A stretch of 64,000 nucleotides of DNA from Branchiostoma floridae. Its lineage: Eukaryota; Chordata; Leptocardii; Amphioxiformes; Branchiostomatidae. Location of the stretch: positions 12,699,189 through 12,763,188 of the forward strand of contig NC_049993.1 of assembly GCF_000003815.2 (NCBI RefSeq), read 5' to 3'. The notes under the pieces are model-generated. The model did no database searches. It saw nothing but the letters and a program-made list of their open reading frames with translations, and was not told the origin of the DNA. Position 1 is the stretch's first letter. Every line of letters begins with the position of its first letter. Positions 22,559-59,227 of the stretch are shown piece by piece. The translations under genes and the position numbers were made by a program.

Positions 22559-22766
22559 TCACCGCTGCGGGAGGTCGGGCGGGGGAGGCCCGTACACCGG
22601 GTACGCCAGGGTGGTGTTGAGCGAGTCGTTGTGTTCGTACAGTGAGTTCTGTTGGTAGTGTAGCACCAGGTCCTTGAGTGAGGCGTACAGGTTGTAGGGT
22701 TCGGCAAACCCGTACCCGGTTGCTGAGTTGTAGATGACGCAGTGTCGCGCTGCCCCTTCCTCCGCT
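22559..22766 (-). CDS. PIK3R1: PI3K regulatory subunit exon 21: C-terminal half of cSH2 and stop
   Basis: The acceptor is TTACAG at 22767 and the stop TGA is at 22559-22561. One base completes Val846, then residues 847-914 follow. It carries HCVI, the [11 protein letters not shown] motif and [10 protein letters not shown], the second half of an SH2 fold, then TLAYPVY and a short Pro-rich tail ending DLPQR. The match to the vertebrate p85 C-terminus is very close. Confidence 0.96.
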
Positions 22767-25700
22767 CTGTAATGGGACACAGCAAAGATTAAAACGTGAA
22801 CAGAGAAACCCACTTGGACAATTACTTTTCAAACGTCCCACTGTCCAAATCAAATGCAACTATCAGAAAAACTGTCAGCATACTTGATATATGTAATATG
22901 ACACATATAGATATAGTATGTTATTGTTAGGGTATATGATGCAATCTAGCAGGAGTGGAAATTCTACTAGTAGAGTCTCTACCATTGGCAGCTGTAGAAG
23001 TGCAATTTCAGCAAAATCATAATGTCTGCACTGACATAACACCGCAACCATTTGTGACTTTTGTTATTTTCCTTTTTTTTTTTACATATGGCTCCTTCTG
23101 TCCTATAAGACAAAGTATTGTACTTACACAATGGACAAGGCATAGTTGTTCTGTTGGCTGCTCTTGCGCACTAGGAAGGTCCCTTCAGGCTTGCCGTCCA
23201 ACAAGCTTTCAGCGTGCACCCGCGAACAGTCGGGAAGGAACCACAGTGACTCATCGTGGTGCGGGAGAGCCTCCTCATTAAAGTTCGGTGCCCTGCGAGG
23301 AAAAGCACAATCGATAAATAAAACCGGCCATGTGATCTTTGCTGAATACAGATGTGACTACTGTACAGCTCTGCACTTTAACCTTCTTCCTCCTAACCCA
23401 GGAATGAATTGGCTACTCTAGTGGCTAAAGGTTAAACTTACAAATCATACAGGGCTCTTCTTCCATGTATCCTATTTTTGCTGTCAGACTGATTAATCAT
23501 CAACAGCCACCGTATCAGATAACTGCATATTGTTGCGTCTATGTGATAAGAAGAACCTTGTTCATTTTTGCCGAGACCAGCGGATCCAGACAATGACTTA
23601 CGTCGTGTCTCCGCCGTGTCCGTCGTACGAAGCCTTGAGCCACTCGTTGATCTTGTCCTGCTTGACGCCCTTGTGTCCGAGCCACATGACGTACTGGTCG
23701 CGGATCTTGCGCAGCTGGATGATGTCCGGTTTGATGCTGTTCATCTCGCGGTCCAGGTTCCGGTTGCCCTCCGTCTGCAGCTTCAGGTCCAGCTCCAGCT
23801 GTTTGCTGCTCTCGATGATCTCGTTCAACCGAGACTTCAGGTTCTCGTAGTTCTCCATGATCCTGTTAGCAAAAGATGTATCAAGGTTAAATGAAGATCG
23901 AAAAAAAGTGATTAGAAACGCAAAAGAGTCACTCAATCTCTGGAAAGAAATGTTATGTTCAGTCACATCTCTCTGACATTTCCTATGTTAAAACAAACCC
24001 ATTTGTATACACTAGTGTCAAAAAGAGGGAGGAGGCATGTAAAAAATGGATTCAGTGGTACTACAGCTTTATATGCCTGATGTGTTTCTCCCGACAGGTA
24101 TTGATATTTCATCTTTAGCCTTTGATGTACATGTTACCTACTTATTCATTGATACATGTGACTACCATATTGCAAATAAAGATTTTTCAATCATCCATAA
24201 AAAAAGTTTTATTCCAAATATGAATACTCAACTCTTGTGAAAATTGACTTTTTTCAAAGTTCATACAGTTACCTTTATCTATTTACACAATGTAAGAATG
24301 CACAATGTCAGAGAGACTCACTTTTTGTACTCCTGACCCTTGACCTCCGAGTGGTATCTCTCGTGAGACTTGGCCTGCTCCTCGAAGATGCTGATGGTCT
24401 CCTTGAAGGCGTCTAGAGCCTGACGCTTCATCTGGATTTCCTGTTAACGGCACGGAACCACAAAATGCTAAGAAACCATACTACTTAAGTACCGTGTCTA
24501 CTTATCTTAATGTCCAGAACTGTTGTATTCTGATGTGTAATTCTAAACATATCTGTTGTCAAAGCTATGTCATACAGTCTACCAGTGCATATCTCAGCTA
24601 CCCTGTTCTTACTACTGTAAACGGGGGGGATTTAATTTCGAGCTAGCAGGAAAGTGGAGTGTTCACGGTGGCTTTAAGTTCACGGTAGTGCAATATATAT
24701 ATATAATGCATAGGAAAAATGTTCGCTGTGGTTTTAAGTTCACAGCTAGACTGCCTCGCAAAACATCTACCAGTATGTAACTTGAGTGTTGACCTCCACC
24801 ACACTAAACCACACTTCCAAACATTTAAACCTTGCACCTGGACTAGCCAAGGCCAGGAGACACTCAAGGGAATAACAACCGATCATAAAAACGTCACAGT
24901 CTACAATTTACTTGCTCTGAATGACACACACAAAGTTCAGTAACCTCACCTTTATATTGACACACAAAGAGGTCAACAACCCCAGTAGATTTGATTGATA
25001 AATCCTGAGATATCCTACCCCCTACCATCACATCTGTCACCACCACTGTTAGTCCTATCTGATATCTACTGCCACGTGGGACTTATAGGGACTCAGCAGT
25101 AAGACCCACTGACAGATGATATATTTAGGATAAGGCCCAGCTTACCTTGATACCACCCTTAATGGTTTATCTTATCCCCTTAAATCATTCCAAGAAGGCT
25201 TCCTTTGGAGGACATTGACCCTTGTCACTACTCATGAAGATGTGTATCAACCCATCATTAAATATACAAATGAAACTGTTACAGCAGGAAAATATGTCCT
25301 GCCTTTTCCTTGACATTAACAAGTGTTTGAAGATACTGTAAATGCATTTAAGTTCGCGGGGATTTAATTTTGCGGTAGCGGGAAAATGGACTTTTTGCGG
25401 TGGTTTTAATTTCGCGGTAGCACCATGCACTGTAGTCTCTTACTGTTATGGAAAAATATTCGTGGTGGTTTTAAATTCGCGGTGAAGCGGTCGCCGCGAA
25501 AACCGCGAACATTAATCCACCGCGAACATTTCTGCATATCAAACCTCTCTGAAATATTAAGAGTTCTGGTATGTCTTCTATAATTGAAGATACATGTGTC
25601 TTCTGATCATATCCTGTCACTCCATAGACGGACAGACATCTTTAAGATAAGGAAACCTTGATATTACCCTGACTGGTTTATCTTATCCTCTTAAATTATT

Positions 25701-28700
25701 CCAAGGAGACTTGGTTCAGGGAAGGACATTGACTCTTGTCACAGCCTACAAATAAGTCTTTCATCCTGTAATTTATACAGCACAGATGGAACTGTTACTG
25801 TAGGCAAACATGATCTGATTTCTGTTTGACCCAGAAGTCAACTTGTTTCTCTGAGTAATAGTTGATGATTGCAAGGCCTTAAATGTATCCTAACTGTTGG
25901 TTGTAAGGTTGTTGACTAAGAATATAAATGTTCTAGGATTGATTCTCTAGTAGCAGGCACCAATGTTTTACCCTTAACACCCATTTCCTCACTTGACTCA
26001 GCTGAAAAAGAGTATTAATGTAAAACTGCAAGCTAAGGGTCCTGTAAGGTTGCTGGCTAAGAATCTAAGTTCTGGGTTCGCCTCTCTAGCAGGCCCCAAA
26101 GTTTCACCCATGTGAAAGGCATTCTACACGTATTTCCTCACTCGTTTCAGTTGAAAACGAGTACTAATGTAGAGAGGTAAAGCTAAGGGTACCGTGTTTG
26201 AGAAGAGCTACACCACAAGCATGTTTAAGATCCCACTGCACTTATCGAAAAGAGTAGGGGACCATCTTGGTGTGTAGGAATCAAACTTTACAGCTTGGTA
26301 TTAAGTAGCTTGGGCTTATTGTACAAAGCTGTTGTGTGATGCTTAAAGGTCAAAACAAACAAACAAACAAACAACTTCCAGTTGTGTTGCTCACCTGAGT
26401 GGACTTGGTGTAGGACTCGTACAGCTGGTCGTACTGTTTGCTCTTGTCCAGGTACTCCTTGTTTAACTCCTGTAGCTTTTTCCCCACCATGTCCACACTG
26501 CTGCCCTCTACACCCTCATCACCCTAACAAACAAGAATTGAACATATTCTTATCTTCTTAGATTTCATACAGTACCCTTTAACATCTTTACAGTCATGAA
26601 CAAAAAACAACAAAGAAAGAATAGACACTTTGGATTGAAAAATATGTTTCAACACATTCATCATTTGAATAACATAAGACATTGTTGGAAATCCTACGAA
26701 TACTTCAACATCATACATGTTAGACTCGTTCTATGCTTTTGTAGGTTTAAACATGTACATGTACTGTATGTAGATACATATGTACTAGAGAGAATCACAA
26801 TTTAAATGGATTGCAAATTTACGGAAAATAGGTCAGATAGAATCACTCAAATCATGTAGCTACATACTAGAGCACACCACAATTTAAAAGGATTGCAAAT
26901 TTAGGAAATGTAGGTCAAATAAACCAACTCAAATGGATTGCTAATTTGGGAAAATAGGTCACATAGAATCACTCAACTCATGTTTTACATGACAGCAAAA
27001 TTAGAGTTTACCTGTTGGATCTTGGAGACAGGGTATGTGAGCCTGACGTCGAGCTTGCAGTTGTACTGCGCTAGCGACTCCTTCCGGTAGTGCTGGATGA
27101 GTTCTACCACGGAACTGAAGCGGAGCGGCTCCGAGAACCCGTACTTCCCGTCTCGATGGCAGATCTTGATCAGCTTGTTGTTACCCCCTTTCCTGTGTGG
27201 AGAAACCATGTTTCTGTGTCATATGAAAATAAATACCACACTGTAATTTCTAGTTTTACTGTCCTTCTTTCTCTGACTGAATCAATAGCTGTTGCAGCAA
27301 TTTTGTCTAGTTGACTCATGAACATATTTAGTCGAATTACACACTTCATGTGGGGTCGCGTGGCAGGGTGTTTGGCCCACAACCTACAGATCCCAGCCAT
27401 GCTACCAATCTTGCTTCACATGACTTTCCTCACTTCATCCAATTTGTACATGACTTTGATAGGGGAAGTAAAGGCAATGAAAGGAGAGGGAAGGGCTCTG
27501 CCTTCTGATACCATACCCTAGACAAGGTGGATAAAAACCCACTGTCCATAGGGTCTGAAAAAAAGCTATAGGACTACCTTTTACCTTCATCTTTGTCTTT
27601 TTACACACTTCAGATCTAAACACAACAAGGGAAGAATTCTAACAGATAGAGCAGTGGAACTTTATTACAGCCCTTGCCCAGTTGTTTGATTTATTCTGTG
27701 TATTGTGTTATGCCCAACCTTCATCAACATAGATCTAGGAACAAAATTTAACCTCTCTGAGGATACGCCCACAAATCTAAGACAATGATTCATTTACACA
27801 ACAGCTGAAACAATCCGAACCTTTCCCATGTTTGCTACACAAGAAAACAAACTATCCCTTCACTGTACTGAACCATCTATCCTGATAACAAACAGGTCCT
27901 GTACTGAGCGGGACACTCACCTCAGGGTTAGTGTGTAGTCCCCTTTGTACTTGGTGGAGGCGTCCCGAACCAGGAAGGTTCCATCTGGCGTGTCCTTCAA
28001 CTTGTCATTGACCTCCTCCCTGTGAGAGTACAGCAGCTGTTGTTAGTCTTCACCAATGGGGATAGACTTACAGAAGTCAAAATGGTAAACATAGATAAGC
28101 ACACTTGGGCCTCCTTTCTACTAGATAAAAACTCTGATAGTAGTATAGACTGATCCTGAATGTCCATCACAATTAGCAGTTCGACCAATGGTAGCATGGC
28201 AATTAGAGATTTGACCAATGAGAGAGTGCCATTTTTAATACAATTGCACAAAAGTACCTGGTATAACTGGCATATTAATTCAGCAATTCAAATGTTGTTC
28301 AAGTTTTCTTCCAAGCTGTTTGCTTTCATCCCAACTTCTTGTGGTATTTTTGTCCGCAAACCAATAAAATACATTGTCCTGGCCTTAAAATGAAACTGTA
28401 CTACCGCTGGCCTAAATGCATCTTTTTCTACAGACTATATTTAACAATGACTTCATAATCATAGACAAGACCATTGTCATGCCTAGACAGTCAAGGTTAA
28501 GAAAAATGAGAGTGTTTACCTTGAGATGTCTCCCCAGTACCACTCTGCCTCTTGAAGAGACTGTGGTGTCTCGTAGTTGTTGAAGCTGTTCTCTTTGCCT
28601 TTACGTCCGAGTGGCATCCGGGGTGGTATGGCTGGTGATGGGGAACAAAAGAAAATGTCACTCCGAAATCTGGTAAAAACTTGTATCTCTGCTCCCAATA

Positions 28701-31700
28701 TTTATACTGCTTTTGGAAACCATGAATTACAAAAATATCATTTAGAGACATTAAATTAAACTTCATTACAAGTTTAAAAAAAGATGTAATAAAAGACAAC
28801 TGAGACACTGACAGGAAGCTAGGTCAAAGGTTCCAAAAAATAGTTATCTCATGTCCCTGTCTTCAATTTTCTGCTACATGCATCTCTGTTGCTTGATGGG
28901 AGCCAGTGGGAAAAATGCATCAAAATCAGCGAGAAATTTTTAATGATCAATTCTCAAATAAGGAATTTATACAAACATCCCACTGAGTACAATATCTTTC
29001 ATCCCCTGTTTAAAAAAGGTGCTGTTTTTACCTGGTTTATCCTCTTCCAGTTCCACATCAGGCAGAGCCTCTCCCCAGCTTCCTCCAGTCAGGAGCAACT
29101 CCACAACCTTCACATGGTACTCAGTGTTACTGGTCACTTGTCTGGGGAGGAAGGAAAGAGTTGGGACATCAGTGGCAGTGTAGGGCAAAGATGTTACAAG
29201 AAATACAAGAAGTCATAAGAAGTAAAAACATAAGAAATCTTGGTACAGTTGACTTGACTTTATTCAGATCCACAGTTGAGGAATCCTCGTTTAAAAGCTT
29301 TAAATGACGCTTACAGATAGCTGTGCAAAGGTTAGGTATGACATGTCGTTCAGTGTGATGTAACTACACGAAGCTGGTACCATGACATGTTATTCCAACG
29401 GGCATTCCACAGATGTGCCTTATATGTGGCAGAGACTATTCTAATATAGGACTGTTCAGCCAAATCTGACACTGTCGGGCTGATATCGATTAGGATTTTA
29501 CCATGGTCAATATTGACCGAAGGAGGCCATATATAGTTATACAGGCTTTACAGATATAGATATGATTGACCAGGTACTTACAGCACATTTTCCCAGGGCG
29601 GTCTCATCAGGATGTGGCAGAAGACCACTGCCAGGTGCTTGGGAGTCATCTTGTTGGCTTTGATGTGCTGGCAGACTCGGCAGAAGTGGGCCATCAGCCA
29701 CTCCAGCGTCAGTCTGTGCTGCTCAGGCAACTGTTTCACCAGCTCTAGGAGCCGGGCCACTAGCTCTACTTCTTCTTTCAGCTCTGGAAAAGAAACCATT
29801 CAGAAAAGCCATTAGTTGCCACTAGACCGGTGCAATGGCTGAGTTGGTAGAGTGTTTGCCTTCCATTTGGTAGGTCGTGAGTTTGATCCCTGGCCAAGTC
29901 ATACCAAAGTCTTTAAAAATGGTACATACTGCTTTCTTTACTTAGCACTCAGCACTAATGAGGAAGAGTATGCGAGTAACAGATCTGTTACAGATGTACC
30001 GACAACTTTTACTTTTTAATTTGTTGGCATGCTTTTAACCTTCTTCATGCTACCCAAACACATGAAGAACTAGAGAATCGGTAGCCAAATGTTTAAAGGT
30101 TAAATACAAAAGACACAAAGTCAGACTTAACCATTACAGGAAAATCAGAAACATGACTCTCCCCATCTTTCAATCAGTAGAAGATTTTACAAAGGTCCAC
30201 CATTACCACAAAAAAGCCTCTCCGCTGAGGTGTTCCCCAAAACACGCAAGCTTTTCTTAACTACAACTGTTTCTAACTTAAGATCCACCATCACAACAAA
30301 AAAGCCTCTCCCCTGAGGTGTCGCAAAAAAACACACACACAACTCTCCCTATCTTTTGATAGAAGATTTTACAAAGATCCACTATTACCACAAAAAAGCC
30401 TCTCCCCTGAGGTGTTGCAAAAAAAAAAAAACACACCAACACTACAACACAACTATCCCTACCTTTAGCTGCTGCGATAAAGCTGTCATACAGCTCCGTG
30501 GTTAGCACCGGGTTGGGCAGCTCTCGGAGGTACCGCTTCAGGGCGCCGGAGACGCAGTGCAGGTCGTAGATGCTTAGATCCACCGAGTTGGGATCCGTGT
30601 TGAACGACTTCTTCAGTTCGTTGATAGCAGCAGTTGAGGAGGAGATTCTATAGATTCCATCTAGATCAAGACCTAGTGGATAAAAAGAAACAATCTTGCT
30701 TTAATATCAAAGCTTAGCCAACAAAGAAATGGCTCTATCAAATGCAGCAAGGAAAAGGTATAAGGACCAATCCTGTCTTAATATCAATGATTGGCTAACG
30801 ACAAAATGACTCCATCAAATGGAGCAGGGAAAAGGTATGATTAGACGTTGTAATGCCTTATAAAACTGAAATCCTGGTTCAGATTTTTAACTTTATTTCA
30901 AACGTTAGCTCAAGACCTAGCAGATGAAATGAACAATCTTGTCTTAGTATCAAAGCTTAGCTAACATAGGAATGGCTCGATCAAATGGAGCAAGGAAAAG
31001 GTTTAGACATCATAATGCCTTATAAAACTGAAATCATGATTCAGAGTTTCATGAAGAAATAAGGACAAACTCTTATACAGTCATATCATGTCAACTCTCC
31101 TAGTTTCGTTAAGTTATCAGATTACTACATATCTTAACCATAAGGCACAGCCTACCTCTTTCCTCTATGGCTTTACAGCACTTGATCACGACCACTGGCG
31201 CTGGGTCGGGCGGACTAAACTGGAGCTTCAAATCCTCCCCAAACAGCGGATCTGTGTGGAACACCACATACATGAACATCTCAACATAAACCTTACCTTC
31301 CCTACACTACAACTGTCTTTAAATATCCCCAGACACAGTTTGGGGACTAACTGTCCTTGATCCATCGCAGGACATAGAAAGGACACAACAGTTGACAGTA
31401 CAGTCTATCCTTTAATCCCCTGTGAAAAGGTGAAGATATGATAGCCTTGTCCCAATTCACAGCCCACACAATACACACATGCCGGCGTTCAACCAGTTTC
31501 GTGGACAAAAGGAAAGCTTCCATACTAGCCATTTCACGGGCTAGCGAAACGTTTCAACACTTCTAACTGCTCGTAACTGCTTGATGCGGTCCACCAACAC
31601 TCAAGGAGATAATGCTAAGTATCTAGTGCAAGTGGACGAGCATGTCTCGGCTACACTTTAGCTGTCACTTTCATACGAACCTTGTTTAAGATTGCAGCCC

Positions 31701-49700: not shown

Positions 49701-52700
49701 AAACATCAAAAAGATATACATTTGTAGATAAGCAGGTGCTTTCAGACGACACAGGCCAGGTGAGACGATCATTAACGACTTTTACTGGCAGACGCATTCA
49801 AATCCAGGGTGGCTACGGTTGGGAACTTCAAATGGGTAACGGTCCAATACTGGTTTCCCAGAAACCTGTGCCCCTTGTGTAACTGTCACCTGATCGAAAT
49901 GAAACAGTACCTTCACAGTAGTGACAGGAAATCCAGGATCTCACTTCCTGTCATCTATGGAATGGAACAGTTGCTGGAGGCTTAAGAATTCTCTCATGCT
50001 TCAAATTTTCTTTCGTGTGCAAAATTCCAAGCAATAACTTCATAACCAATTTATAAATAAAGAAATTGATAAAAGAAAGCTGTAATTTTACATCATGTAA
50101 CTCCAGGGCAATCCATATTTTTGACCGGGAGTAACTAAATCAAACTTCTAATATTTGATGACGTTCCAATATCAGACACTAGTTTTATCTTTGAAAATTA
50201 CCGCAAGAATCAACAGACGAAACCATTTCTGGTGCTTCTGTCGGGACTGACCATAACTTGAAAGAGGGGTGATAAATCGACCCAGAAAAATATCTACTGT
50301 AACTGCCAACATTACGGACCATTCCGTTCTTTACTTTGTCTAATAAAGGTAAAGAACGGGTATTTCTTTGAAGATTGTCAGGAATATTTCTTCCTTTTCT
50401 GACTAACGACCTTTCTAACTGGCTTCCGCCCAACTTGTGCAGGTAGAAAATTACTCAAACCCATCAGTAAGCAGTTAATCATGTGCCTTCTTTTATTGCG
50501 CTGGGAAAAGTTGAGCAGCACACGAAAGACCAGTCGGCTGACGTTTTGCTGATGAGCGCTGTCGGACGCGGCTGATGCACTTTTATTACTTTTGGTCGGG
50601 GATGGCTGATTGGGATGTACAGCATGATTAGGAGGATATACGACTCATCAACCAACTGTGCGATCAATCCGAGAACTCGCTAGAACAGGAAACATAAAAC
50701 TTCACTACCGTATAACAGGGGTCTTTGTGGCACATACATGAACATCTGTCAAAGGCACATCACTATAAATATATACAATTACAACAAGTCTATATCGAAT
50801 GCACAGACAGGTGATTTTGTAACACTTCATTTGTAATGATTAATTGCTTTTTCAGCTGGTCGAACAATGGAACAAAGCACATGATATGAATTACAATACA
50901 GAAAACAGGTGTACCATTCAATTAGAAAACTTACCAATTTAATTTCCAAGTTCCAACTGTCCCTTTCTTTTACATGACAAGTAAAAAGGGGCTTTCAGAG
51001 GCAAGGAGCGTTCTAGCCAGCCTGAAATTTTTTTCTGTCCTCTGGATCTTGCTTGGAAATCCTGTCCAAGGTGCAACAATGCTAGCCTAGGGGGTCCAGG
51101 GGCATGCTACCCAAGGGTAAGTTTGAAATCTCCACCCTCTGAAAACGCTATTTCTTCTATTTCTAAGGGGCAAATTTTGCTGATAGACTCTGCTTGGTTC
51201 AACTACAATCTTTACATTCCAATTTTTGTCTGTCACAGAGGACAGAATGGGCAAAAATTTTGTCCGTTCCCAGCGTCAAAATTCCGTTAAAGGAAGGATG
51301 GACGGATATTGGCTAGAACCCTGCAAGCAAGTCAATACCTTTTCATAAATAGCATTTTCAAAATTAGACCAATACAAATTCCATTTCAGTATGTTGGCAG
51401 CCTAGCTATTGTGAACCTTCCATTTACACTTTGAGGCTTCCCTTGCATTCATTCTGACGCAGCCACAGTCCTTCTCTCTTCCCCTAGCAACAGTTCCTGC
51501 TTTAGAACGTCCATGATTTAGGGCATCATTAGTGCTGGGCCAATGGGGACACCACAGCTCAATGCTCTGTCTGCCAGTTCCTCATTGCAATAATGTGCCA
51601 AAATCATGGATCATGCCCAGCCAGGGGGCAGGAGCATCATTTATTGATTCCGCGTAGAGAGCCATCACCATACATTAGGCCGAAATGGATGCGTCGTAAG
51701 TTACGATAACGGAGGCTCTCTGAACTCTTTTTTTCTGCTTGCGTCGAGTTCTCGTTGGCTATTAGTCTACCTGGGTGCGTTAACGCAGCGTTCCCTTATT
51801 AGGAGCTCTTCCCAAGCGATCTTTAGTGCGCCTACGCAGACCTTTCACTTCTGGCGTATGTGTATCTTAGACACTGCTCTCGCTGTGCTTTTGCCTGTAA
51901 TTGGAAATTCAAACCCTTTACCTAAGGTTATATGACCTGGTTAGAGTTTCCTATTTCCTTATTAGGTACAAAACCATTCAGTCTACTCCGTTATGGGCCA
52001 TAACTGAATCAAAGTGTCTTTCATTCTGCATAGAGGAAAGATTTACCGTAAAGCAATTGTACATACATGTACAAGACCTACATACGGCCAATTCATGCAG
52101 ATGCAAGAACAAAGATTCCCTTACCTCCTTTCCACCAGCACAATACCAGTTATGATGAAATTTAAACTTGTTAGGTAAAGGTATATACGACCTGGTTAGA
52201 GTTTCCTATTTCCTTATCAGGGACAAAACCATTCAGTCTACTACGTTATGGGCCATAACTGCATCAAAGTACCTTTTACTCTGCATATAGAGGGAAGACT
52301 GTAAAGCAAAAGCAATTGTACATACCTACAAGACCTACTTATGTACATGCAAGCAAAAAATATTCCCTTACCTCCTTTCCACCAGAACAATACCAGTTAA
52401 GATGACCAGACTCGACTTTATATCATATCATAAACCGTACAGCACATTAGTCATGAATGCGAGCAAAAATCTCTCCACTGCACATGTCTGTTGCTACTTT
52501 CTAGTCACATGCTCATTATGACAACACATTACATCAGTGCGCATGATTATAACTTGCAACATTACCTGTTGCAAAAGAATGTAGCGTTACATCACCCACA
52601 ATGACATGATAGAACAGAGCCCATCTCTGTCATGTTGTGAATACAGAGTCTTGTTTATATCTATCGGTTTTTTTGATGATCATAACTAGATAAAGCACAA

Positions 52701-55700
52701 CAATAAACCTGGCGATCAATATGGAATTTGCCTGGGTCTGTCTTATTTTATATGACTTATTGATATTTAGCTTGTGACTCTTTTTGCATAATTCGGAAGA
52801 AAATTTTATTTTAGATACAAAGAGCTACCAATAACCCAAAACTAGTTGAAGCATTTGCATAAAAAGCTATTCATAGTTCATTGAAAGGTGCTACATATAC
52901 TAAAACTAAACATCACAGGATTGAATCTGTTTGAAACAACAGTGCAAGAACCAATTCTAGGTGCCCTGTCTACTACACAGTGACCATACACTATGATACA
53001 GCAACCAAGATTGGATTCATGTGACACCCCATTTCAAAATTAGAAGATGTTGCAAGATGTAAAAAATACAATTTCAAAGACACCAAAACACACAAGATGT
53101 AAAAAAATCATTCCCTGTCCACGAAATTCTAAGAGCAACCTGTCCAATCTTACTTCCTCTGTAGTTACTATGTCTACTCCAAGTGCACAGTATGCAAAGG
53201 TGGTTGTGCCTCCAAACATAACACACGTCCAAGACTCAAAAGTGGATGACTTCACAGCTCTCCCCACTATTTTTAGTCACGGATGAAAGAAAGGTGGACT
53301 TGATGTAATTACTGGCAAGTGGGGTGGGTTTTGTGCATGGGTAATTGGTGGTTGGGTGCGCTTGGCCTCTGACCATAAGCCACATGTTTGGCCCACGTGA
53401 GGTGGGACTTGGCTCCAGCCTGGAGGGGAGGTCTCCATTGACTGTAAAATTCTCTTTCAGTTGGTGCAGCTATACGTACGCTAATCTGCAAGTTACACCT
53501 TGAAGGCTTGAGGGAAATGCATGAGTGTCATTCTTCTTTCTCTGGGAAAAGGGAAAGGTAGTAGCAACACTGCAAGACAGAACGATTGAGATAGGTACAA
53601 TTAACAAAGGGGAAGGGGGTTGCCATTATGGACTTTTTAGTTCAGGACATCTAAGGAAATGCCATGAGCACCTAGTGGAAAGATACGTAAAAATCAGGCC
53701 TTCCAATCATCATGTACAAGACAACATGTCCAGTCCAGTTACTTTGCTTTTTGGCCTGCATCCAATATGAAATTCCATGAAGAGCACAACCATAAAACTA
53801 ATTTTTACAGCCTTAGAAACAAGGCTACTTTTGTGAAAACCAAGGTCAAGCTAAGGTCTATGCAAATGTATAGACAGGTCCCTCAGGCCATATTTAATGT
53901 AAAGGCTGGTGTGAACATGCCAGATGGTCATGTCTTGTGTTTAATTTAACGTTCACAAGCTGACACAGCACCTAGTATTATCAGTCTCAGCACAATTGAT
54001 AACCTCACTCTTGTAGACATTCCACATAACATTATATGGCTCAAAATTCTTTGGGGACAGGTGCACTGCTAGTGCACCTAACTTAAAAATTTGGGTGCAC
54101 ATAAATAATTTTGGTTGCACAACTAGGATAAAGCAGTACATCAGCAAAACCTAATTGCAAACCTTACTGCCCCTCTTCAGACCTTTAATCTTAAAGTCTA
54201 CAGCTAACTTCAAAATGCAACAAAGTTTTGGTAGTTTTTTCTACCCAGTAACACTCAAATGTCAAGAAAATACAGTATACTTGTATATGACTAGTACCTT
54301 TACATATATAATAAGTCAAATATCTACTTGTGCAGATGCATGCGCAGTCAAAAATAAGTTGCACAACTGCTCCAAATTTGGGTGCACAAAAGTGCACACG
54401 TTATGCACCCAGCACTTTGAGCCCTGCATTGCCACAAATATTGCATCACTTCTATACCCAGATACCTGGCGGAAGTTCCTGCACTATCAATAGATGACCA
54501 ATCCGATACCGTGTCTACAGGATATACATGCACGGCAATAGAAACATCATCTAAAGTCTAGATGAATAAAAATGGATTTTTCGAGGAGCAGGAAATGGGC
54601 ATCTTATGGACATGCATTTGTGGAGAAGAACTTCTTCATCTTAAGGTTGACATGATTTGGAAAGGGTTTTCTTCGTAAATCCCACGCATAATTTGTGTAG
54701 TTTTTTTCTACCATTATTTCGCACTTTATTTCTGTAAACCTCCGGACGTCCCTTGTGTAAGATTTTCCTCTTTATTTTTGTATCTCCCATATTGAAGGGT
54801 TTTTGACCTACATGTTTGAACAAAGGCCTGTGCCAAAACCACAGGAATGTTACCATGGGCATTAACAAATGTGACTGACCGCAATCAGCCATTGGCTAAT
54901 GATTGACACAAGCCTTGGTGTGTATCAGGTGTCACGTTGTTTCAAACAATAGAAGAAAGACCATTGGACTTAATCATGATTAACTTTTCTCAGGCATAAG
55001 TCCAGTATGATTCTTGACAAACCACTAATAATAGGGTAGACAATACTAGACATGTATTTGTGGTTTGATTTATGATAGGGCAAAGGAATTAGAGTGGAAA
55101 AATCATCCAAATTACCCTCTTTTTGAGACATTACATTATTACATATCAGGTAAAAATAGATGGGCAAGAAAAAAATAAAGGATATGAGACTATACAAAAC
55201 AAGAATGAGGTCTTGCACTAATATTAATAATGCTTTTCTGGAATACCACTAAATCTACATTCCAGGAAATATATATATACGAGAAAACTTCCCAAAAAAG
55301 AAAAAAGACTTCCGAGCCATAGCAACAGCGGCGAGCAGCCACCGATCGTGACTTGTCCGATAGTAACCCTGCGAAAAAATCCATCCCCACAATCAAAGAC
55401 AGTTGCACTGCCTCAATCACCAGTATTACTCTAATCCCCAATGACATCAGTAGATACATCAGTCCTGGCAACTTTCTGTTCTAATACATGCCTGTTTGAC
55501 CTATTGCAACCAAAGGCTTACTGAAGTAAAACAGACAAACGAACGCTGATAAAACAAAACTGCTCAGGTATGCTCTCAATTTCTAGTTCTCAAACTCAAT
55601 TTCCTTTTGTGATGACACAAAAAGTTAGTAGCCAAATACAAGGTAATAGGACACTAATAATAATTTTCATAAAGTTTGAATACTGATATTTCAAGTACTA

Positions 55701-58700
55701 TAATAGAAATATTTTTTGTTAAACATGATGTGTCTTGTTAAGTTATTCTGTTATCGTTCTTCCTGTCAGAAGGTGTTTGAAATCTAATGCTTTTCTGTCT
55801 TTTCATCATTTTATTTTAGCGTCATAGCAAAAAGTACAACTTTTAAGTTTTCAGTATCGCTATCGGCACAGAAATGTGAAATTTTACACTATTCAAGAAG
55901 CTGTTTTCTGGCAAATATTTATCGTAGCATTTTTGCTCACAAGCAGTTCACCAGGAAGAGATGGTACATGTACAGTCCACCTTGTCCTAGTTATGTCAGC
56001 GCCAATGATGATCATCTGCCTCCCTTGTACTATCAATAATGACCCAGTTTTCTTCACATTTTCCACCCTAGCAATCCGATTAACAGGCAACTGGAAAACG
56101 TGGCAGTAACGGGTACTTCATCTAATGGCGTTATCAAGATCCTGCTTTTATTTGGGTCAAGGTAACGGTAATCATCGTGCACTGGGTTAATTGGACCTAA
56201 TGTCTATTTATAATTCAGCGGAATAAAGCGTCAGCCAAGTATGGAACAGTGTTGGGGGAACATTTTACCTCCGGGTGAGATCGTATCTCTTTTCAATCAA
56301 ATATTTTGGAACGGTTGTGGGACAAAAGAATGATGAAAGAAATTGTCTGCGATGTGTTATGCTGAAGGGCGGTTGTACCGGCTATACAGGTATATATGCC
56401 CCCCCCCCCCTTTAGACTAGGAAATACCACTTTTTCCTAACCACAGACCACAAGTTCCAATGCAATATATTTTAGTGGAGGATGGTTTGTGGTAACCCGG
56501 AAAACCAGACTTTGAGCCAGGGCCGGCAGACAACTTGTTCGGCAGCCAAGGCAGGTATTCCTCAAGACCTAAGAGAATTTGTAATGCATAATGCAGGGAC
56601 AGTTTGCCAGCCTAGCTAGTCCTTTGCTGCTTATCCAAGGTCCTAGGGAAGACCTACCTTGGTTGCCGAAGAAATTCTCTGCTGGCCCTGGCTAAAACTT
56701 TAAAAGTCTGGTTTTCCAGGGTAGGTTTGTGGGGTAGGGGAATCAGACTGTGACTACAGCTGTCTTCACTCTAATCACCAATGTTTTCACTCTAATCAGC
56801 AATGTGGGTCATCATGCAGCTGGACACTTACAAAGGATGAACCAGCTACTCCTGACAAACCACTGGTTACAAATCTAGGCCAAAAGCCCTACTTTGTGGT
56901 AAAGGTTTTGTCTTGAGAATTAGCTAGTAACCATGTCTAGATTAAAAGTCCAGCAAGGCAAGGCTTCAATTCAAATACATGATGCATGCATATACACTTA
57001 TATGCACCGCACTGGAGCTATGCATCTAAATTTTCACTGTAGCCTAGCTGCACCAATGCACATAAAGAGATACCATTGTACAGTATTTTCTGGCAGTAAG
57101 AAAAAAGGAATTTGATGATAGCTATAGAATTTCTGATGAAAACTCTGGAGAAAGCCATTAAATTTGCACTTAGGATTTGCCGACGTTTTATGTTGTGCAA
57201 CCAAAGTCTTTCTTGTGTACCTAAAATTTTAGGTTAGATGCACCTTGTTGCAAAACTGAATTTTGAGCCCTGCGGGAGAAACTGAGAAGAATAGAGTATT
57301 TACAGACACACAAGTCCAAGATGCAAGCTCTTGGACTTTTCCCAGTGCAACATTTTTAGGTTAGGCACACCTAGTTTTAGAACTGAATTTCGAGCCGTAC
57401 AGGGCAACAGAGAAGAATGGAGTATCTACAGACACACACGTCCACCTGGGGTTATCATGTCGGACATCTGTTGACCATAGGTAGGTGCAAACAAAGCGCA
57501 CAGGAAAGGGTAATCAGCTGGACAGGAAACCAGGTTAGTCAAACACGTCTACACAAGGATCTCTGGCTTTTCTTCGCTGGGCACACAAGGGGGGGATTAA
57601 CCGCAGGTAACCCCTAACAGGTGACCCCCGGACTGGTCAGAGAGGAGTGGACAATACTGGACATTACAATATGAACTGCTAACAAAGATAGTACCCACAT
57701 ACTGTAAATGTTTTTATTTTCGCTATGATTTAAGTTTATGGTAGGCAAGAGAGGGAGTTTTTTTTGCTGTCTTTCAAGTTTGTGGTTGAAACAACTAGTA
57801 ATACATTGGAAATCTGTAGTCACATTGCCATGAAGATGTCTGGCAAAAACCCCAGCGAAAGTAAAATTACTACAAAGTTTTAAAAATATACAGTATGGGA
57901 TGTACTTGCTTTTTACACATGCATTAGAAGAGTGACTATAATAAAACAAACAAACTATGGCAACATTTTTTTCAATTTCATTTGAATATTGAATGTTAAG
58001 ATTAGCTACAAAATAAGATGGACGTATGATTTGAAGAAAGTATATGATGATATACTACAGCCTGACTGGACCACCCAAACTAAGGATACTGAGAACTGGT
58101 GTATAAATATACACTGCTTTCTGTTGGGGCTGCCATGATTAGTCTGGTCTTACCAGGGGGGTTTCCTCTACTTCAGGTACAATATCATACAAACCTTTCT
58201 TTATACCTCAAGTCTCAGACCATCTACTCCATCCCTCCCATTATTTTTTTCTAAGAACTCTTCCAACTCATTGCAAAGGTTAGCGTGAAGGTTGTATAGG
58301 AAAACACTGTCTGAAGTCTGCTTTAGACATTGCGCAGCAGAAGATGCTACATTTAGTTAACCTTGCTTTGCCAACATATCAATGAGAGACATGGCTGCAA
58401 CATCTCGATTCTGAAACCAGTAAAACGTTAATGTTGTAAGATCTGATACTTGAACATTGCAACCTTCTGAACGAATGTGACCCTAGAATAAGAAAGCGCT
58501 AGCCTGTCTTTTCCGTCTTTGTTTGCCTTTATTGGTGTTGGTTCAAGAAAGGGGAAGGAACACACGTATCTCGTGTCCAACACACAACATGTAAGGCAAG
58601 AAACCTTGATGCCTCCAGAGTTGTAAGACAGGCAAATCCAACAATACCACAAACCCAATCCTGCTCTAGAAATCCTACTCAGGGTGGTAACCCTAGCGGC

Positions 58701-59227
58701 CAACCACACAGGGTCCTTTGTTGGGGGCTCTGGTGGGCATTGTTGATACAATTTCAGACTTGATAGTGGAGAAGATCGCTGCCATGGCGACGCTGTCACT
58801 TACATCAGACAAATGTGCCCGTCGCTATGGCAACAGGTAGGGTTCAGCCACCTTGGGGCTGGGGAGAGGCAAAGATATTGCAGCAGGCTGCCAGCTGATA
58901 GGAGAGTGGTTGCACCTGTAATTTTATCCAGTTGGGGAAAAAAGCTTTCAGCCTGTGGCATTGTAAAGCATGTGTGGGGAACAAGCTTTGGAATAAAAGA
59001 ATGGAGGCCAAGGTGACTTGGTGACATTAACATGGTTGTACAGATATCTCTTGCAGGTGCATGAAAATGAACAAGCAAAACCGACTCACACTACAGGTGA
59101 AAAATACAAGTACAATGTGTGAAAATAATTAAAGCCCACCTGTAATCTGAGGATCCTTGTCTTCCATTTCACCAGTATTCTTAAAGATTCCGTCTGGTTC
59201 TTGGCATGGTTGGCTGCGCTCAGCCAT
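22559..59227 (-). CDS. PIK3R1: class IA PI3K regulatory subunit (p85-like) with C1-SAM-C1-RhoGAP-SH2-iSH2-SH2 architecture
   Basis: I reconstruct 21 coding exons (listed individually), all with GT-AG borders and matching phases: 2745 nt, 914 residues plus stop. The protein should recruit the p110 catalytic subunit to phosphotyrosine sites and restrain it in the cytosol. Domains: first C1 55-102 (last ligands altered), SAM about 131-195, second C1 220-269 (all eight ligands), RhoGAP/BH about 286-455, nSH2 521-621 (FLVR Arg546), inter-SH2 coiled coil 622-790, cSH2 808-905 (FLVR Arg833). The SH2-iSH2-SH2 part matches vertebrate p85 closely, including Asp741 and Asn745 at the p110-contact positions (human p85alpha Asp560/Asn564, from memory). 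No SH3 exon was found, unlike vertebrate p85alpha/beta. It is probably a pre-duplication relative of PIK3R1/2/3. The N-terminus (exons 1-2) is the least certain part; an internal ATG at residue 32 could start a shorter form. Confidence 0.88.
23128..23292 (-). CDS. PIK3R1: PI3K regulatory subunit exon 20: N-terminal half of cSH2
   Basis: Acceptor CGCAG and donor GTAAGT are both strong. Residues 791-846 include the SH2 start LWF, then [10 protein letters not shown] with phosphotyrosine-binding Arg833 in the FLVR motif. Starts with 1 nt and ends with 2 nt of split codons, in phase with both neighbours. Confidence 0.96.
23602..23862 (-). CDS. PIK3R1: PI3K regulatory subunit exon 19: distal inter-SH2 coiled coil
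   Basis: Residues 704-791 form the second long helix of the iSH2 antiparallel coiled coil that grips p110. [18 protein letters not shown] is nearly identical to vertebrate p85. Asp741 and Asn745 occupy the positions that contact the p110 C2 domain in p85alpha. Acceptor TAACAG, donor GTAAGT. Confidence 0.97.
24322..24440 (-). CDS. PIK3R1: PI3K regulatory subunit exon 18: middle of inter-SH2 coiled coil
   Basis: Residues 665-704 begin [22 protein letters not shown], the conserved end of iSH2 helix 1 in p85 proteins, then a turn segment. The acceptor is TTAACAG and the donor is GTGAGT. It starts in phase 0 and ends with 2 nt of a split codon. Confidence 0.95.
24612..24780. repeat. diverged copy of the TTCGCGG-type dispersed element
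   Basis: The copy starts TACTGTAAACGGGGGGATTT and contains GTTCACGGTGG, GTTTTAAGTTCAC and AATGCATAGGAAAAATGTTCG in the same order as the better copy at 25334, but most GCG triplets have decayed to CAC. It lies in the intron between exons 17 and 18 of the PI3K gene. Confidence 0.7.
25143..25745. repeat. direct repeat pair flanking a TTCGCGG element
   Basis: About 85 bp at 25143-25225 (CTTGATACCACCC... TTGACCCTTGTCAC) recurs diverged at 25657-25745 (CCTTGATATTACCCTG... TTGACTCTTGTCAC). The pair brackets the element at 25334-25537. Too long and diverged to be a target-site duplication, so more likely an older local duplication. Confidence 0.65.
25334..25537. mobile_element. approximately 205-bp TTCGCGG-type dispersed element
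   Basis: It begins TACTGTAAATGCA and consists of alternating GTTCGCGG, GATTTAATTTTGCGG, GGTTTTAATTTCGCGG and, inverted, CCGCGAACATT blocks. Thus the two halves are partly inverted copies of each other. A second good copy in the opposite orientation is at 45218. Non-coding and non-autonomous; the family name could not be confirmed. Confidence 0.85.
25900..26192. repeat. tandem duplication of a possibly SINE-derived unit
   Basis: Two diverged copies (about 25900-26040 and 26041-26192) share TGTAAGGTTG-TG-CTAAGAAT, CTCTAG-AGCAGGC-CCAA, ATTTCCTCACT, CAG-TGAAAA-GAGTA and AAGCTAAGGGT. Copy 2 contains TCTGGGTTCGCCTC, a weak match to a tRNA B box. Confidence 0.65.
26395..26523 (-). CDS. PIK3R1: PI3K regulatory subunit exon 17: start of inter-SH2 coiled coil
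   Basis: Residues 622-664 (43 codons, phase 0 on both sides) begin with an acidic GDEGVEG linker, then [20 protein letters not shown] and [10 protein letters not shown], the start of iSH2 helix 1. The acceptor is TTGTTAG and the donor GTGAGC. Confidence 0.94.
27012..27192 (-). CDS. PIK3R1: PI3K regulatory subunit exon 16: C-terminal half of nSH2
   Basis: Residues 561-621 carry [41 protein letters not shown] and LTYPVSK. This is almost the same as vertebrate p85 nSH2, including the loop that contacts the p110 helical domain. It ends in phase 0 at KIQQ, with acceptor CACACAG and donor GTAAAC. Confidence 0.97.
27921..28019 (-). CDS. PIK3R1: PI3K regulatory subunit exon 15: nSH2 FLVR segment
   Basis: Residues 528-561 read [19 protein letters not shown], with Arg546 the phosphotyrosine-binding residue, then KGDYTLTLR. 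The acceptor is TCTCACAG and the donor GTGAGT. One nt in and two nt out agree with the neighbouring exons. Confidence 0.96.
28180..28240. repeat. single-unit relative of the 33-kb 30-bp minisatellite
   Basis: One 30-bp unit (TTCGACCAATGGTAGCATGG...) is followed by the same divergent terminal part-unit (GACCAATGAGAGAGTGCCAT) that ends the long array at 33241. So the unit belongs to a dispersed element that expanded at only one site. Confidence 0.8.
28520..28631 (-). CDS. PIK3R1: PI3K regulatory subunit exon 14: linker and start of nSH2
   Basis: Residues 491-528 form a basic/Pro linker ([15 protein letters not shown]) then [12 protein letters not shown], the typical nSH2 opening of p85. The acceptor is ATCACCAG and the donor GTAAAC. 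The Pro-rich BH-to-SH2 linker found in vertebrate p85 is short here. Confidence 0.94.
29032..29141 (-). CDS. PIK3R1: PI3K regulatory subunit exon 13: end of RhoGAP/BH domain
   Basis: Residues 454-491 carry [21 protein letters not shown], the last helix of the RhoGAP fold, then an acidic linker [11 protein letters not shown]. The acceptor is CCCCAG and the donor GTAAAA. Phase agrees on both sides. Confidence 0.9.
29582..29783 (-). CDS. PIK3R1: PI3K regulatory subunit exon 12: RhoGAP core helices
   Basis: Residues 387-454 contain [19 protein letters not shown] and [18 protein letters not shown], both standard RhoGAP blocks. The Asn of the usual MTxxNLA block is His436 here. The acceptor is TTTCCAG and the donor GTAAGT. 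Confidence 0.95.
29826..29990 (+). mobile_element. tRNA-derived SINE-like element
   Basis: A-box-like TGGCTGAGTTGG (29836-29847) and B-box-like GAGTTTGATCC (29879-29889) are correctly spaced for a Pol III internal promoter. The tRNA-like head is followed by a non-tRNA tail. Lies in the intron between exons 11 and 12 of the PI3K gene, opposite to its direction. The acceptor stem does not pair well, so it is not an intact tRNA gene. Confidence 0.6.
30186..30432. repeat. three tandem copies of an approximately 92-bp intronic unit
   Basis: The block TCCACCATTACCACAAAAAAGCCTCTCC-CTGAGGTGT occurs near 30196, 30283 and 30377. The last two copies are followed by A-rich runs and CTATC-TTTGATAGAAGATTTTACAAAG-type spacers. 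The array ends 30 bp before the donor of exon 11. Confidence 0.85.
30463..30672 (-). CDS. PIK3R1: PI3K regulatory subunit exon 11: RhoGAP arginine-finger and KxxxR segment
   Basis: Residues 317-387 carry [13 protein letters not shown] with Arg325 at the arginine-finger position, and [14 protein letters not shown] with Lys362 and Arg366, the conserved K-x3-R of active RhoGAPs. The acceptor is CCACTAG; its flank is partly duplicated 244 bp upstream in the intron. The donor is GTAGGG. Confidence 0.95.
30664..31050. repeat. intronic repeat that duplicates the exon 11 acceptor flank
   Basis: The segment 30665-30765 (ATCAAGACCTAG... CAATCTTG... ATCAAAGCTTAGC... GGAAAAGGTAT) recurs at 30909-31008, with a third partial copy at about 30768-30890. 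The 30909 copy repeats the last exon 11 bases and the minus-strand acceptor (CTAG|GTCTTG), creating a possible cryptic 3' splice site. Confidence 0.8.
31156..31251 (-). CDS. PIK3R1: PI3K regulatory subunit exon 10: start of RhoGAP domain
   Basis: Residues 286-317 read [28 protein letters not shown], the standard RhoGAP N-terminal block (NPLFG...P.vv..c...iE.rG). The acceptor is CACACAG and the donor GTAGGC. Phase 1 introns on both sides. Confidence 0.94.
32065..32163 (-). CDS. PIK3R1: PI3K regulatory subunit exon 9: second half of canonical C1 domain
   Basis: Residues 252-285 carry the last zinc ligands of C1 domain 2: Cys253, His258, Cys261 and Cys269 (C-x4-H-x2-C-x7-C). A highly basic linker (RDRRRRE) leads into the RhoGAP domain. 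The acceptor is TGTTACAG and the donor GTAAGC. Confidence 0.94.
32457..32590. repeat. strongly decayed TTCGCGG-type element
   Basis: It begins TACTGTAAATCTTGAAATGTTTGC, with GCGGTTTTATTTCTG and, inverted, GCTGCAAACTTAAAGCCCCC. The order of blocks matches the element at 45218, but the CG dinucleotides are mostly lost. Confidence 0.55.
32643..32802 (-). CDS. PIK3R1: PI3K regulatory subunit exon 8: first half of canonical C1 domain
   Basis: Residues 199-251 form a Ser/Pro linker then His220-x12-Cys233-x2-Cys236-x13-Cys250. [17 protein letters not shown] and [12 protein letters not shown] resemble C1 domains of chimaerins and other RhoGAPs. The Gly and Gln of the WG-x3-QG motif are kept, but the Pro of FxxPT is Val, so diacylglycerol binding is uncertain. 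Acceptor TTTTGCAG, donor GTACCG. Confidence 0.94.
32911..33262. repeat. 30-bp minisatellite, 11 full copies
   Basis: Eleven consecutive 30-bp units (TTCGACCAATGGTAGCATGG plus CAATTACCAG) keep exact register from 32911 to 33240, followed by a divergent part-unit at 33241. Variants GATAGC/GGTAGC and TTCGACC/TTCAACC partly alternate. Every unit has a CCAAT-like core, and 30 being a multiple of 3 leaves open frames on both strands, which are not taken as genes. Lies in the intron between exons 7 and 8. Confidence 0.98.
33461..33541 (-). CDS. PIK3R1: PI3K regulatory subunit exon 7: C-terminal part of SAM domain
   Basis: This exon has 27 codons, phase 0 on both sides. Residues 172-198 begin [20 protein letters not shown], the MGI-x-D-x-x-HR-x-x-L-x-x-I pattern that ends SAM domains. 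The acceptor is TTTTCCAG and the donor GTAAGT. Confidence 0.92.
33814..33948 (-). CDS. PIK3R1: PI3K regulatory subunit exon 6: N-terminal part of SAM domain
   Basis: This exon has 45 codons, phase 0 on both sides. Residues 127-171 read [31 protein letters not shown] and LNDQALM, following the SAM pattern W-x3-V-x2-W-x4-L-x2-Y-x3-F...dG..L..L....L. The acceptor is TTGTCCAG and the donor GTGAGT. Confidence 0.94.
34304..34422 (-). CDS. PIK3R1: PI3K regulatory subunit exon 5: end of first C1 domain and linker
   Basis: Residues 87-126 begin CLCCFHKGD, giving Cys88 and His93 of the first C1 domain. Where His-x2-Cys is expected, Asp96 stands, and the last Cys (102) comes two residues early. A Cys-containing linker (ADHTCVRAE) leads to the SAM domain. 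The acceptor is TTTCCAG and the donor is a weaker GTCAGT; the frame is fixed by both neighbours. Confidence 0.82.
34854..34901 (-). CDS. PIK3R1: PI3K regulatory subunit exon 4: core of first C1 domain
   Basis: A 48-nt exon. Residues 71-87 read [15 protein letters not shown], closely resembling the C-x3-FIWG-x-GKQG-x-x-C core of PKC-type C1 domains; Cys71 and Cys85 are ligands. The acceptor is TTCTGTAG and the donor GTATGT. Phase 1 on both sides. Confidence 0.87.
35078..35146 (-). CDS. PIK3R1: PI3K regulatory subunit exon 3: start of first C1 domain
   Basis: Residues 48-71 are a Gly/Ser linker then His55-x12-Cys68-x2-Cys71, the opening of a C1 zinc finger ([18 protein letters not shown]). The acceptor is TGGTTTCAG and the donor GTGAGT. 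Phase 1 on both sides, matching exons 2 and 4. Confidence 0.85.
38152..38165. promoter_or_regulatory. near-perfect RFX X-box
   Basis: GTTGCCATGGCAAT matches 13 of 14 X-box positions (final C is T). It lies 0.6 kb downstream of exon 2 of the PI3K regulatory gene, in intron 2. Confidence 0.3.
38777..38830 (-). CDS. PIK3R1: PI3K regulatory subunit exon 2 (short, predicted)
   Basis: A 54-nt exon with acceptor TGTGCAG and donor GTGGGT. Residues 30-48 read [17 protein letters not shown]. It starts with 2 nt and ends with 1 nt of split codons, in phase with exon 3 (joining as EGSGG). It was found by looking for phase-compatible open exons, so support is from splice signals and frame rather than from homology. 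Met32 is a possible internal start. Confidence 0.7.
39290..39800. repeat. diverged tandem array of about four 130-bp units
   Basis: The anchors TTGGTGATGACAAA (39348, 39608, 39741 and a diverged one near 39499), TTCCACACA-TG and GATTTCTCTGAA-TCTG recur in the same order. Units vary in length. Lies in intron 1 of the PI3K regulatory gene. Confidence 0.75.
41811..42100. repeat. tandem duplication, two copies of about 120-140 bp
   Basis: The series AAACTTAAGACATGTAAGTT, AGCAATAGCA, AGAACTTTATTGAA, GAGCACTCTTGGTGGC, TAAGTACCA-T-TAACAAATG-ACAGA occurs at about 41813-41940 and again at about 41993-42095. Confidence 0.75.
44330..44560 (-). promoter_or_regulatory. candidate alternative promoter in intron 1
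   Basis: A more GC-rich 200-bp island contains, on the minus strand, a CCAAT box in good context (CAGCCAATCAGGGAGCG, near 44410-44425), CCGGGGAC and a TCTATA-like motif. A transcript starting here would skip exon 1 and could use Met32 in exon 2. Evidence is compositional only. Confidence 0.25.
45218..45429. mobile_element. 212-bp TTCGCGG-type dispersed element, best copy
   Basis: Both ends carry the inverted terminal motif TACTGTAAATGCA / TGCATTTACAGTA. Internal blocks GTTCGCGGTGG, TGTTCGCGGTTTTCGCG, CCGCGAATTTAAAACCACCG, CTACCGCGAAATTAAATCC form nested inverted repeats. It is the reverse-oriented, more complete partner of 25334-25537. No ORF, so a non-autonomous element. Confidence 0.9.
46606..46700. 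repeat. decayed TTCGCGG-type element fragment
   Basis: TACTGTAGATGCAGAAATACTC, GGTTTTAAGTTTGCAGTTTTC and ACCACAAATTCAAAAC follow the first half of the copy at 45218, with CG sites mutated. Confidence 0.6.
48370..48520 (+). mobile_element. possible tRNA-derived SINE fragment
   Basis: GGTTCCAAGCC (48436-48446) is a perfect B-box match (GGTTCVANNCC). It is preceded by a tRNA-like GTGCCACTGTATAATGGTCAGC segment and followed by a tail with TTTTTTAACACCG. The A box is poor, so this may be a decayed SINE. Confidence 0.4.
51905..52405. repeat. tandem duplication, two copies of about 245 bp
   Basis: Copy 1 (about 51907-52155) and copy 2 (about 52170-52405) share ACCTGGTTAGAGTTTCCTAT, AAAACCATTCAGTCTACT, CGTTATGGGCCATAACTG, AAAGCAATTGTACATAC and CTTACCTCCTTTCCACCAG, with about 10-15% differences judged by eye. 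No coding potential seen. Confidence 0.9.
54040..54440. repeat. inverted-repeat element rich in GGTGCAC motifs
   Basis: The left arm (GGCTCAAAATTCTTTGG ... GTGCACCTAAC ... TTTGGGTGCACATAA ... GGTTGCACAAC, 54037-54125) is mirrored by a right arm (AGTTGCACAACTG ... AAATTTGGGTGCACAAAAGT ... CACTTTGAGCCCTGC, 54357-54428). Related GTGCACC/TTTGAGCCCTGC motifs recur at 57190-57270, suggesting a dispersed family. Confidence 0.55.
56496..56722. mobile_element. fold-back (MITE-like) element with approximately 70-bp arms
   Basis: The left arm (CCCGGAAAACCAGACTTTGA... GCCAGGGCCGGCAGA... TTCGGCAGCCAAGGCAGG) is mirrored by the right arm ending CTGGTTTTCCAGGG at 56722 (...GGTTGCCGAAGAAATTCTCT, GCTGGCCCTGGC). 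About 80% arm identity by eye; no ORF. Confidence 0.75.
57213..57450. repeat. tandem duplication, period about 125 bp
   Basis: AAAACTGAATTTTGAGCCCTG... GAGAAGAATAGAGTATTTACAGACACACAAGTCCA (57253-57317) recurs as AGAACTGAATTTCGAGCCGTA... GAGAAGAATGGAGTATCTACAGACACACACGTCCA (57376-57441). Preceding TTTTAGGTTAG-GCAC blocks also match. Confidence 0.8.
57699..57876. repeat. strongly decayed TTCGCGG-type element
   Basis: It starts ATACTGTAAATG and contains TTTTCGCTATGATTTAAGTTTATGGTAGG and, inverted, CCCAGCGAAAGTAAAATTAC. Block order fits the family of 45218, with little sequence left. Confidence 0.45.
58778..58834. promoter_or_regulatory. pair of perfect RFX X-boxes in intron 1
   Basis: GCTGCCATGGCGAC (58778-58791) and GTCGCTATGGCAAC (58821-58834) both fit RYYNYYATRRNRAC at all 14 positions, with starts 43 bp apart (30 bp between). 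They lie 306-362 bp downstream of predicted coding exon 1 of the PI3K regulatory gene. Clustered X-boxes are typical of RFX-regulated promoters or enhancers; activity here is inference. Confidence 0.55.
59140..59227 (-). CDS. PIK3R1: PI3K regulatory subunit exon 1: predicted initiator exon
   Basis: ATG at 59227 has A at -3 and G at +4 and is the first ATG after an in-frame TAG near 59383. It encodes 29 residues ([15 protein letters not shown]...DKDPQIT) plus one base and ends at donor GTGGGC. The phase joins exon 2 as a Val codon. The 20.3-kb intron and lack of recognisable homology keep this call moderate; an RNA-seq read across 59140/38830 would settle it. Confidence 0.55.

Follow-up and report, generated by a model that had tools for sequence, protein, structure and literature searches.

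A p85-type PI3K regulatory subunit gene of amphioxus predicted to combine SH3, SAM and C1 domains

How the N-terminal half of a chordate p85-type PI3K regulatory subunit is built is the question raised by this locus. A sequence-only reading of the DNA had proposed that a C1-SAM-C1 arrangement stands in place of the SH3 domain. It must be asked whether the SAM and C1 modules replace the SH3 domain or accompany it, and whether all of these modules belong to one gene. The window, i.e. the whole stretch of 64,000 nucleotides of amphioxus (Branchiostoma floridae) DNA that was analysed, corresponds to C15:12699189-12763188. The upstream search was extended about 20 kb beyond the window, and genome searches covered 513 Mb in 431 contigs.

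Gene model and identity of the regulatory subunit

The window contains a p85-type gene on the minus strand. Sixteen exons between 33948 and 22559 form a single open frame with GT-AG borders and encode 788 amino acids plus a stop codon; among the plus-strand frames listed (from 18000), no p85 exon was seen. Compared singly with Pfam, nine of ten minus-strand segments matched SAM, C1, RhoGAP, SH2 or iSH2 (two SH2 halves among these lying below the cut-off), and the tenth, the second half of C1, had no match by itself. Domain calls were made on an 827-amino-acid model consisting of exon 34422-34304 and the 16 exons. All five Pfam families exceed their cut-offs in this model: iSH2 with 194 bits, RhoGAP with 148, SH2 with 123 (two stretches), C1_1 with 46 and SAM_1 with 45. 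Splicing is supported because the SAM and C1 matches each span an intron. The domains are distributed as follows.

33461..33948, minus strand: SAM domain, exons 33948-33814 and 33541-33461 (Pfam SAM_1 1.5e-11, spans an intron)
32065..32802, minus strand: C1 domain, exons 32802-32643 and 32163-32065 (Pfam C1_1 4.2e-12, spans an intron; best single-domain PDB match PKC-delta C1)
29032..31251, minus strand: RhoGAP/BH domain, exons 31251-31156, 30672-30463, 29783-29582 and 29141-29032 (Pfam RhoGAP 148 bits)
27012..28631, minus strand: linker and N-terminal SH2, exons 28631-28520, 28019-27921 and 27192-27012 (Pfam SH2; p85alpha alignment)
23602..26523, minus strand: iSH2, the p110-binding coiled coil, exons 26523-26395, 24440-24322 and 23862-23602 (PF16454 194 bits)
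22559..23292, minus strand: C-terminal SH2 and stop codon, exons 23292-23128 and 22766-22559 (p85alpha alignment)

The order SAM, canonical C1, RhoGAP and SH2-iSH2-SH2, as first proposed, is thus upheld by Pfam matches above cut-off. The accompanying claim that exons 3-21 join in a single GT-AG-bordered frame holds for the 16 minus-strand exons from 33948 to 22559 but not for a start at 59227. Within the SAM-C1 intron lies a minisatellite (window 32909-33252) with a 30-bp unit in 11.5 copies; its length is divisible by three, and it sits inside long open frames on both strands.

Several lines of evidence point to a class IA PI3K regulatory subunit. The PF16454 match covers positions 1-161 of 161 of the iSH2 model, and human p85alpha aligns with the C-terminal part over 617 residues (660 bits). 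The phosphotyrosine-binding arginine of the FLVR motif is kept in both SH2 domains (FLVRDAST and FLVRKSSQ in the p85alpha alignment). In the genome, PF16454 found one locus, with three exon matches that all belong to the p85 gene. PF02192, the p85-binding domain of p110, yielded four exon matches, all on contig C14 and falling into two places, corresponding to two p110 genes. These places, G000:C14:12903981-12904525 and 16289391-16290173, are about 3.4 Mb apart on the one contig. Two p110 genes and one regulatory gene agree with the published class IA set of invertebrates, which has two catalytic genes and a single regulatory one (PMC4617754; PMC8805411). An amphioxus PIK3R1/2/3 pro-orthologue is listed in PMC8805411, in the accessible text without domain details, and PI3K complex genes are reported there as undetected in the amphioxus muscle transcriptomes of that study.

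The locus is very probably a single class IA PI3K regulatory-subunit gene, the amphioxus PIK3R1/2/3 pro-orthologue, with the order SH3-Pro-linker-SAM-C1-RhoGAP(BH)-nSH2-iSH2-cSH2. Its iSH2 would clamp one of the two genome-encoded p110 subunits, and the two SH2 domains would recruit and release p110 at phosphotyrosines, like those of human p85. A division into two separate genes, one encoding SAM-C1-RhoGAP and the other a p60-like SH2-iSH2-SH2 subunit, could appeal to the C1-RhoGAP part, which taken alone is chimaerin-like (160 bits). However, frame and phases are continuous across both halves, the BH starts with a p85-type segment (14 amphioxus residues versus QFAPPDIAPPLLIK in the p85alpha alignment) and is followed by a p85-like linker to nSH2, and a p85-type SH3 lies upstream, which makes such a division scarcely credible.

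Two genes of the Tctex-1 family (dynein light chain type), oriented oppositely to each other, lie downstream of the p85 gene at 10722-11342 (plus) and 2130-1690 (minus). Their Ser/Arg-rich N-terminal parts are similar by eye; exon 10722-11153 alone falls below the Pfam cut-off, and the other two exceed it.

The 5′ end of the gene

If the 16 exons belong to one gene, the next question is where it begins. Three features bear on the answer.

65389-65068 in window-equivalent coordinates (L040:1389-1068), minus strand: SH3 exon, 1.07-1.39 kb past the window end
34423..64000, minus strand: window part of the 30.6-kb intron, whose 5′ end is the SH3 exon beyond the window
34304..34422, minus strand: Cys-rich linker exon (model exon 2), phase 2 in / 0 out, score 30.4

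Exon scores combine codon usage with splice sites and were trained on the 16 exons. Exon 34422-34304 scores 30.4, among real exons, and the next non-overlapping minus-strand candidate in 34423-64000 reaches 19.8. The intron was simulated 60 times with a second-order model. Best scores in these runs averaged 20.3 and peaked at 28.8; when only phase 2-in/0-out was allowed, they averaged 15.8 and peaked at 24.4, and no run reached 30.4. As a second control, the intron's plus strand gave a best score of 23.1, or 17.7 for phase 2/0. By these scores, exon 34422-34304 is likely to be genuine. Its antisense also scores high (28.3), so the choice of reading frame depends chiefly on phase.

The exon encodes 40 residues, including five Cys. 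Searches of Pfam (E<=1) and of the PDB (E<=10) gave no match to it, and for this reason it is named a Cys-rich linker rather than a C1 domain; the C1-like finger proposed before the SAM is not borne out. Six-frame regular expressions for a whole C1 finger found none. Of three minus-strand half-finger matches, the one at 32739 is the real C1, that at 52639 holds a stop codon, and that at 1079 lies far downstream.

The SH3 exon is the best first-exon candidate (25.8) in the upstream extension, leaving aside an F-box/LRR-like gene farther upstream. It contains an ATG, encodes 107 residues with a proline-rich tail, and has its 3′ end in phase 1. The encoded peptide matches the SH3 of p85alpha, together with the adjoining proline-rich stretch, with 67 bits and the p85beta SH3 with 48, and the best non-p85 SH3 gives 32 bits; Pfam SH3_1 scores 32.2 bits against a cut-off of 22.9. 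In the genome, the exon was the sole match at E<=0.001 (ten candidates scored). A whole-genome SH3_1 scan did not have it among the 147 matches listed (150 of 223 candidates scored), a caution that invertebrate p85 SH3 exons may escape detection. The F-box/LRR-like gene, judged by eye from its translation, lies on the same strand at about 8482-9662 of L040 (minus).

The phase-1 end of the SH3 exon and the phase-0 start of the SAM exon call for one or more connecting exons of phase 2-in/0-out. Exon 34422-34304 fits this exactly, although several exons summing to the same phases are also possible. With a p85-type SH3 exon in phase with the linker exon, SAM and C1 can no longer be said to stand in place of the SH3 domain. 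An 18-exon model, made of the SH3 exon, the linker exon and the 16 exons, keeps a single frame with compatible phases and would encode a 935-residue protein, SH3-Pro-linker-SAM-C1-RhoGAP-SH2-iSH2-SH2. We infer the join over the 30.6-kb intron from phase, strand, the p85-type SH3 and single-copy status. Against this exact model, an extra exon of length divisible by three could sit in the intron, and the SH3 exon has alternative possible donors of the same phase. An assembly gap (N run) at about 59977-60258 lies in this first intron and could hide an exon; its position was reckoned from translated frames, and N letters total 282 in the whole window.

The model proposed earlier instead starts at 59227, places a C1-like finger before the SAM and lacks an SH3 domain. 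Exon 59227-59140 does contain an ATG, its donor is good (9.7), the linker exon does hold 5 Cys in 40 residues, and shrimp p85 is reported with one SAM and two C1 domains (PMC12817958). But the exon stays at noise level: as an internal exon it scores 19.2, versus 19.8 for the best candidate in the intron and the simulation mean of 20.3, and as a first exon it scores 12.1 versus 25.8 for the SH3 exon. The 914-amino-acid model (59227-59140, an unknown exon, 34422-34304 and the 16 exons) would need a 171-nt exon, and none with good splice sites was among the candidates, the best of the three having an acceptor of -1.8 and a donor of 1.8. Exons 3-4 of that reading fared no better when phase-compatible exons of the long intron were enumerated and scored against simulated introns, again reaching noise level. 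With no Pfam C1 match in the linker exon and a p85-type SH3 exon upstream, a start at 59227 is dismissed, and the model as a whole is highly improbable.

A further alternative is that the gene uses more than one promoter, with some transcripts carrying SH3 and others starting in the long intron to give SH3-less SAM-C1 forms, like vertebrate p55/p50. The vertebrate gene has internal promoters, and the amphioxus intron is 30.6 kb long. First-exon candidates inside the intron, scored without a simulated control, reach at most 14.4 versus 25.8 for the SH3 exon, and this arrangement is accordingly considered unlikely. The single 18-exon gene remains the preferred model.

Properties of the C1, SAM and RhoGAP/BH modules

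C1 domains typically show the zinc-ligand pattern HX12CX2CX13CX2CX4HX2CX7C, and the groove set for binding diacylglycerol (DAG) comprises P11, L20, L21, W/Y22, G23, L24 and Q27. In the amphioxus C1, all eight zinc ligands are present (model and PKC-delta C1 alignment), and the best single-domain PDB match is a PKC-delta C1 domain with 58 bits, chimaerins scoring lower with 48 bits. Groove residues L21, W22, G23, L24 and Q27 are kept, L20 is replaced by Phe and P11 by Val. The groove segment reads FLWGLIRQG versus LLWGLVKQG of PKC-delta C1, with Val where the latter has Pro. DAG binding by this C1 is likely, a prediction made because of the eight zinc ligands, the PKC-delta C1 match and the likeness of the groove; the Val for Pro counts against it.

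The C1 would add diacylglycerol-dependent membrane binding to the subunit, and the SAM might add partner binding or oligomerisation. The SAM domain has weak similarity to the SAM domains of liprin, neurabin and Shank. A subunit linking PI3K to DAG or to SAM partners is plausible on these features, and direct diacylglycerol control of class IA PI3K becomes testable in an invertebrate.

The RhoGAP/BH domain matches the p85alpha BH with 117.7 bits, N-chimaerin with 113.4 and the p85beta BH with 49.2. The human p85alpha BH reaches 57 bits with N-chimaerin, behind MYO9B (59.6) and ARHGAP15 (57.7). The catalytic residues of RhoGAP are the arginine finger Arg282 and the supporting lysine Lys319, and the binding determinants are Arg323, Asn391, Val394 and Pro398 (p50RhoGAP numbering; PMC8305018). 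By motif versus chimaerin, the amphioxus BH keeps Arg282 (GIYRIS) and Lys319 (ALKRYLR). Two of the four binding determinants, Arg323 and Val394, are kept as well, and Asn391 and Pro398 are both His, p50 numbers being assigned by spacing. In p85alpha, positions 323, 391 and 394 are Leu, Val and Glu, and position 398 is Pro, although this residue is listed as lacking in the accessible text of PMC8305018. Human p85 has the arginine finger and the lysine, yet is considered non-functional as a GAP (PMC3852207), its reported Rho-GAP activity being either not detectable (PMC8305018) or very low (PMC7458397). On these residues the amphioxus BH is intermediate, less degenerate than the human one. It would bind a GTPase of the Rho family, perhaps with residual GAP activity.

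Chimaerins, published p85 forms and evolution

The N-terminal half had also been described as chimaerin-like. The C1-RhoGAP part matches N-chimaerin with 160 bits across both domains, and two intron positions and phases are identical in p85 and the amphioxus chimaerin gene (region L039): a phase-1 intron at C1 codon 33 and a phase-1 intron in RhoGAP, five codons before G[IL]YR. Intron positions were read partly by eye, and the second shared chimaerin acceptor was chosen by homology, an alternative acceptor 12 nt downstream belonging to the best-scoring exon. Three chimaerin introns differ from p85: two that follow HNFK and SFDK, respectively, and a third, after FIEAA, displaced by one codon. 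The region retrieved did not yield the final exons of the chimaerin RhoGAP. The C1 intron position also occurs in three of six other C1 loci, and the RhoGAP one in two of seven other RhoGAP loci (L012 was not judgeable; L014, which has AG and a frame open upstream, was left uncounted). Since they recur in these loci, the shared introns are not diagnostic of chimaerin. The likeness of C1-RhoGAP to chimaerins therefore stands, but the introns do not single out chimaerins for a fusion origin; a common origin of the C1-RhoGAP unit with chimaerins is possible.

Additional domains are already published for invertebrate p85. C1 is reported in mollusc, cnidarian and ichthyosporean p85 (Philippon 2015, PMC4617754), SAM in mollusc, arthropod and choanoflagellate p85, and an extra SH2 in cnidarian and ichthyosporean p85 (PMC4617754). 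SH3 was detected in choanoflagellate p85 and ray-finned fish p85alpha, and SAM together with SH3 is reported in choanoflagellates (PMC4617754). The main text of that study does not name amphioxus, and 'cephalochordat' occurs once, in a reference title. The suggestion that the architecture is undescribed thus needs narrowing: SAM and C1 in invertebrate p85 are on record (PMC4617754; PMC12817958), but no description of a p85 with SH3, SAM and C1 together was found in the accessible open-licence literature. What looks new is the coexistence of SH3, SAM and C1 in one predicted chordate p85.

SH3 and SAM-C1 would then not be alternatives in p85 evolution, as one chordate gene appears to have both. 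On this view, the loss of SAM-C1 in vertebrates is the simpler account, which suggests that vertebrates lost these domains. A more far-reaching proposal, tentative and in our view rather doubtful, is that the gene keeps the ancestral and fullest animal form, SH3-SAM-C1-RhoGAP-SH2-iSH2-SH2, in which the C1 responds to DAG and the RhoGAP is partly functional. Vertebrates would have deleted SAM-C1 while their GAP site decayed, and the lack of a reported SH3 in other invertebrate p85s would reflect incomplete annotation, the domain being divergent and encoded by a distant first exon. If true, phosphotyrosine, diacylglycerol and Rho-GTPase signals would converge on one PI3K.

Comparison with known systems places the predicted protein as follows. 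It shares the adjacent C1-RhoGAP with chimaerins (SH2-C1-RhoGAP), and two intron positions of its gene coincide with those of the amphioxus chimaerin gene, but it has SAM and SH3 rather than SH2 before the C1, plus the SH2-iSH2-SH2 block. Mollusc, arthropod and cnidarian p85 likewise carry C1 and/or SAM N-terminal to RhoGAP-SH2-iSH2-SH2 (PMC4617754; PMC12817958). With vertebrate p85alpha/p85beta (PIK3R1/PIK3R2) it has in common the SH3, the proline-rich stretch, BH, nSH2, iSH2 and cSH2 in the same order. In contrast to these, the SH3/proline part and the BH of the amphioxus subunit are separated by a Cys-rich linker, SAM and C1, and its BH stands nearer to canonical RhoGAPs (113 bits to N-chimaerin versus 57 for the human p85alpha BH).
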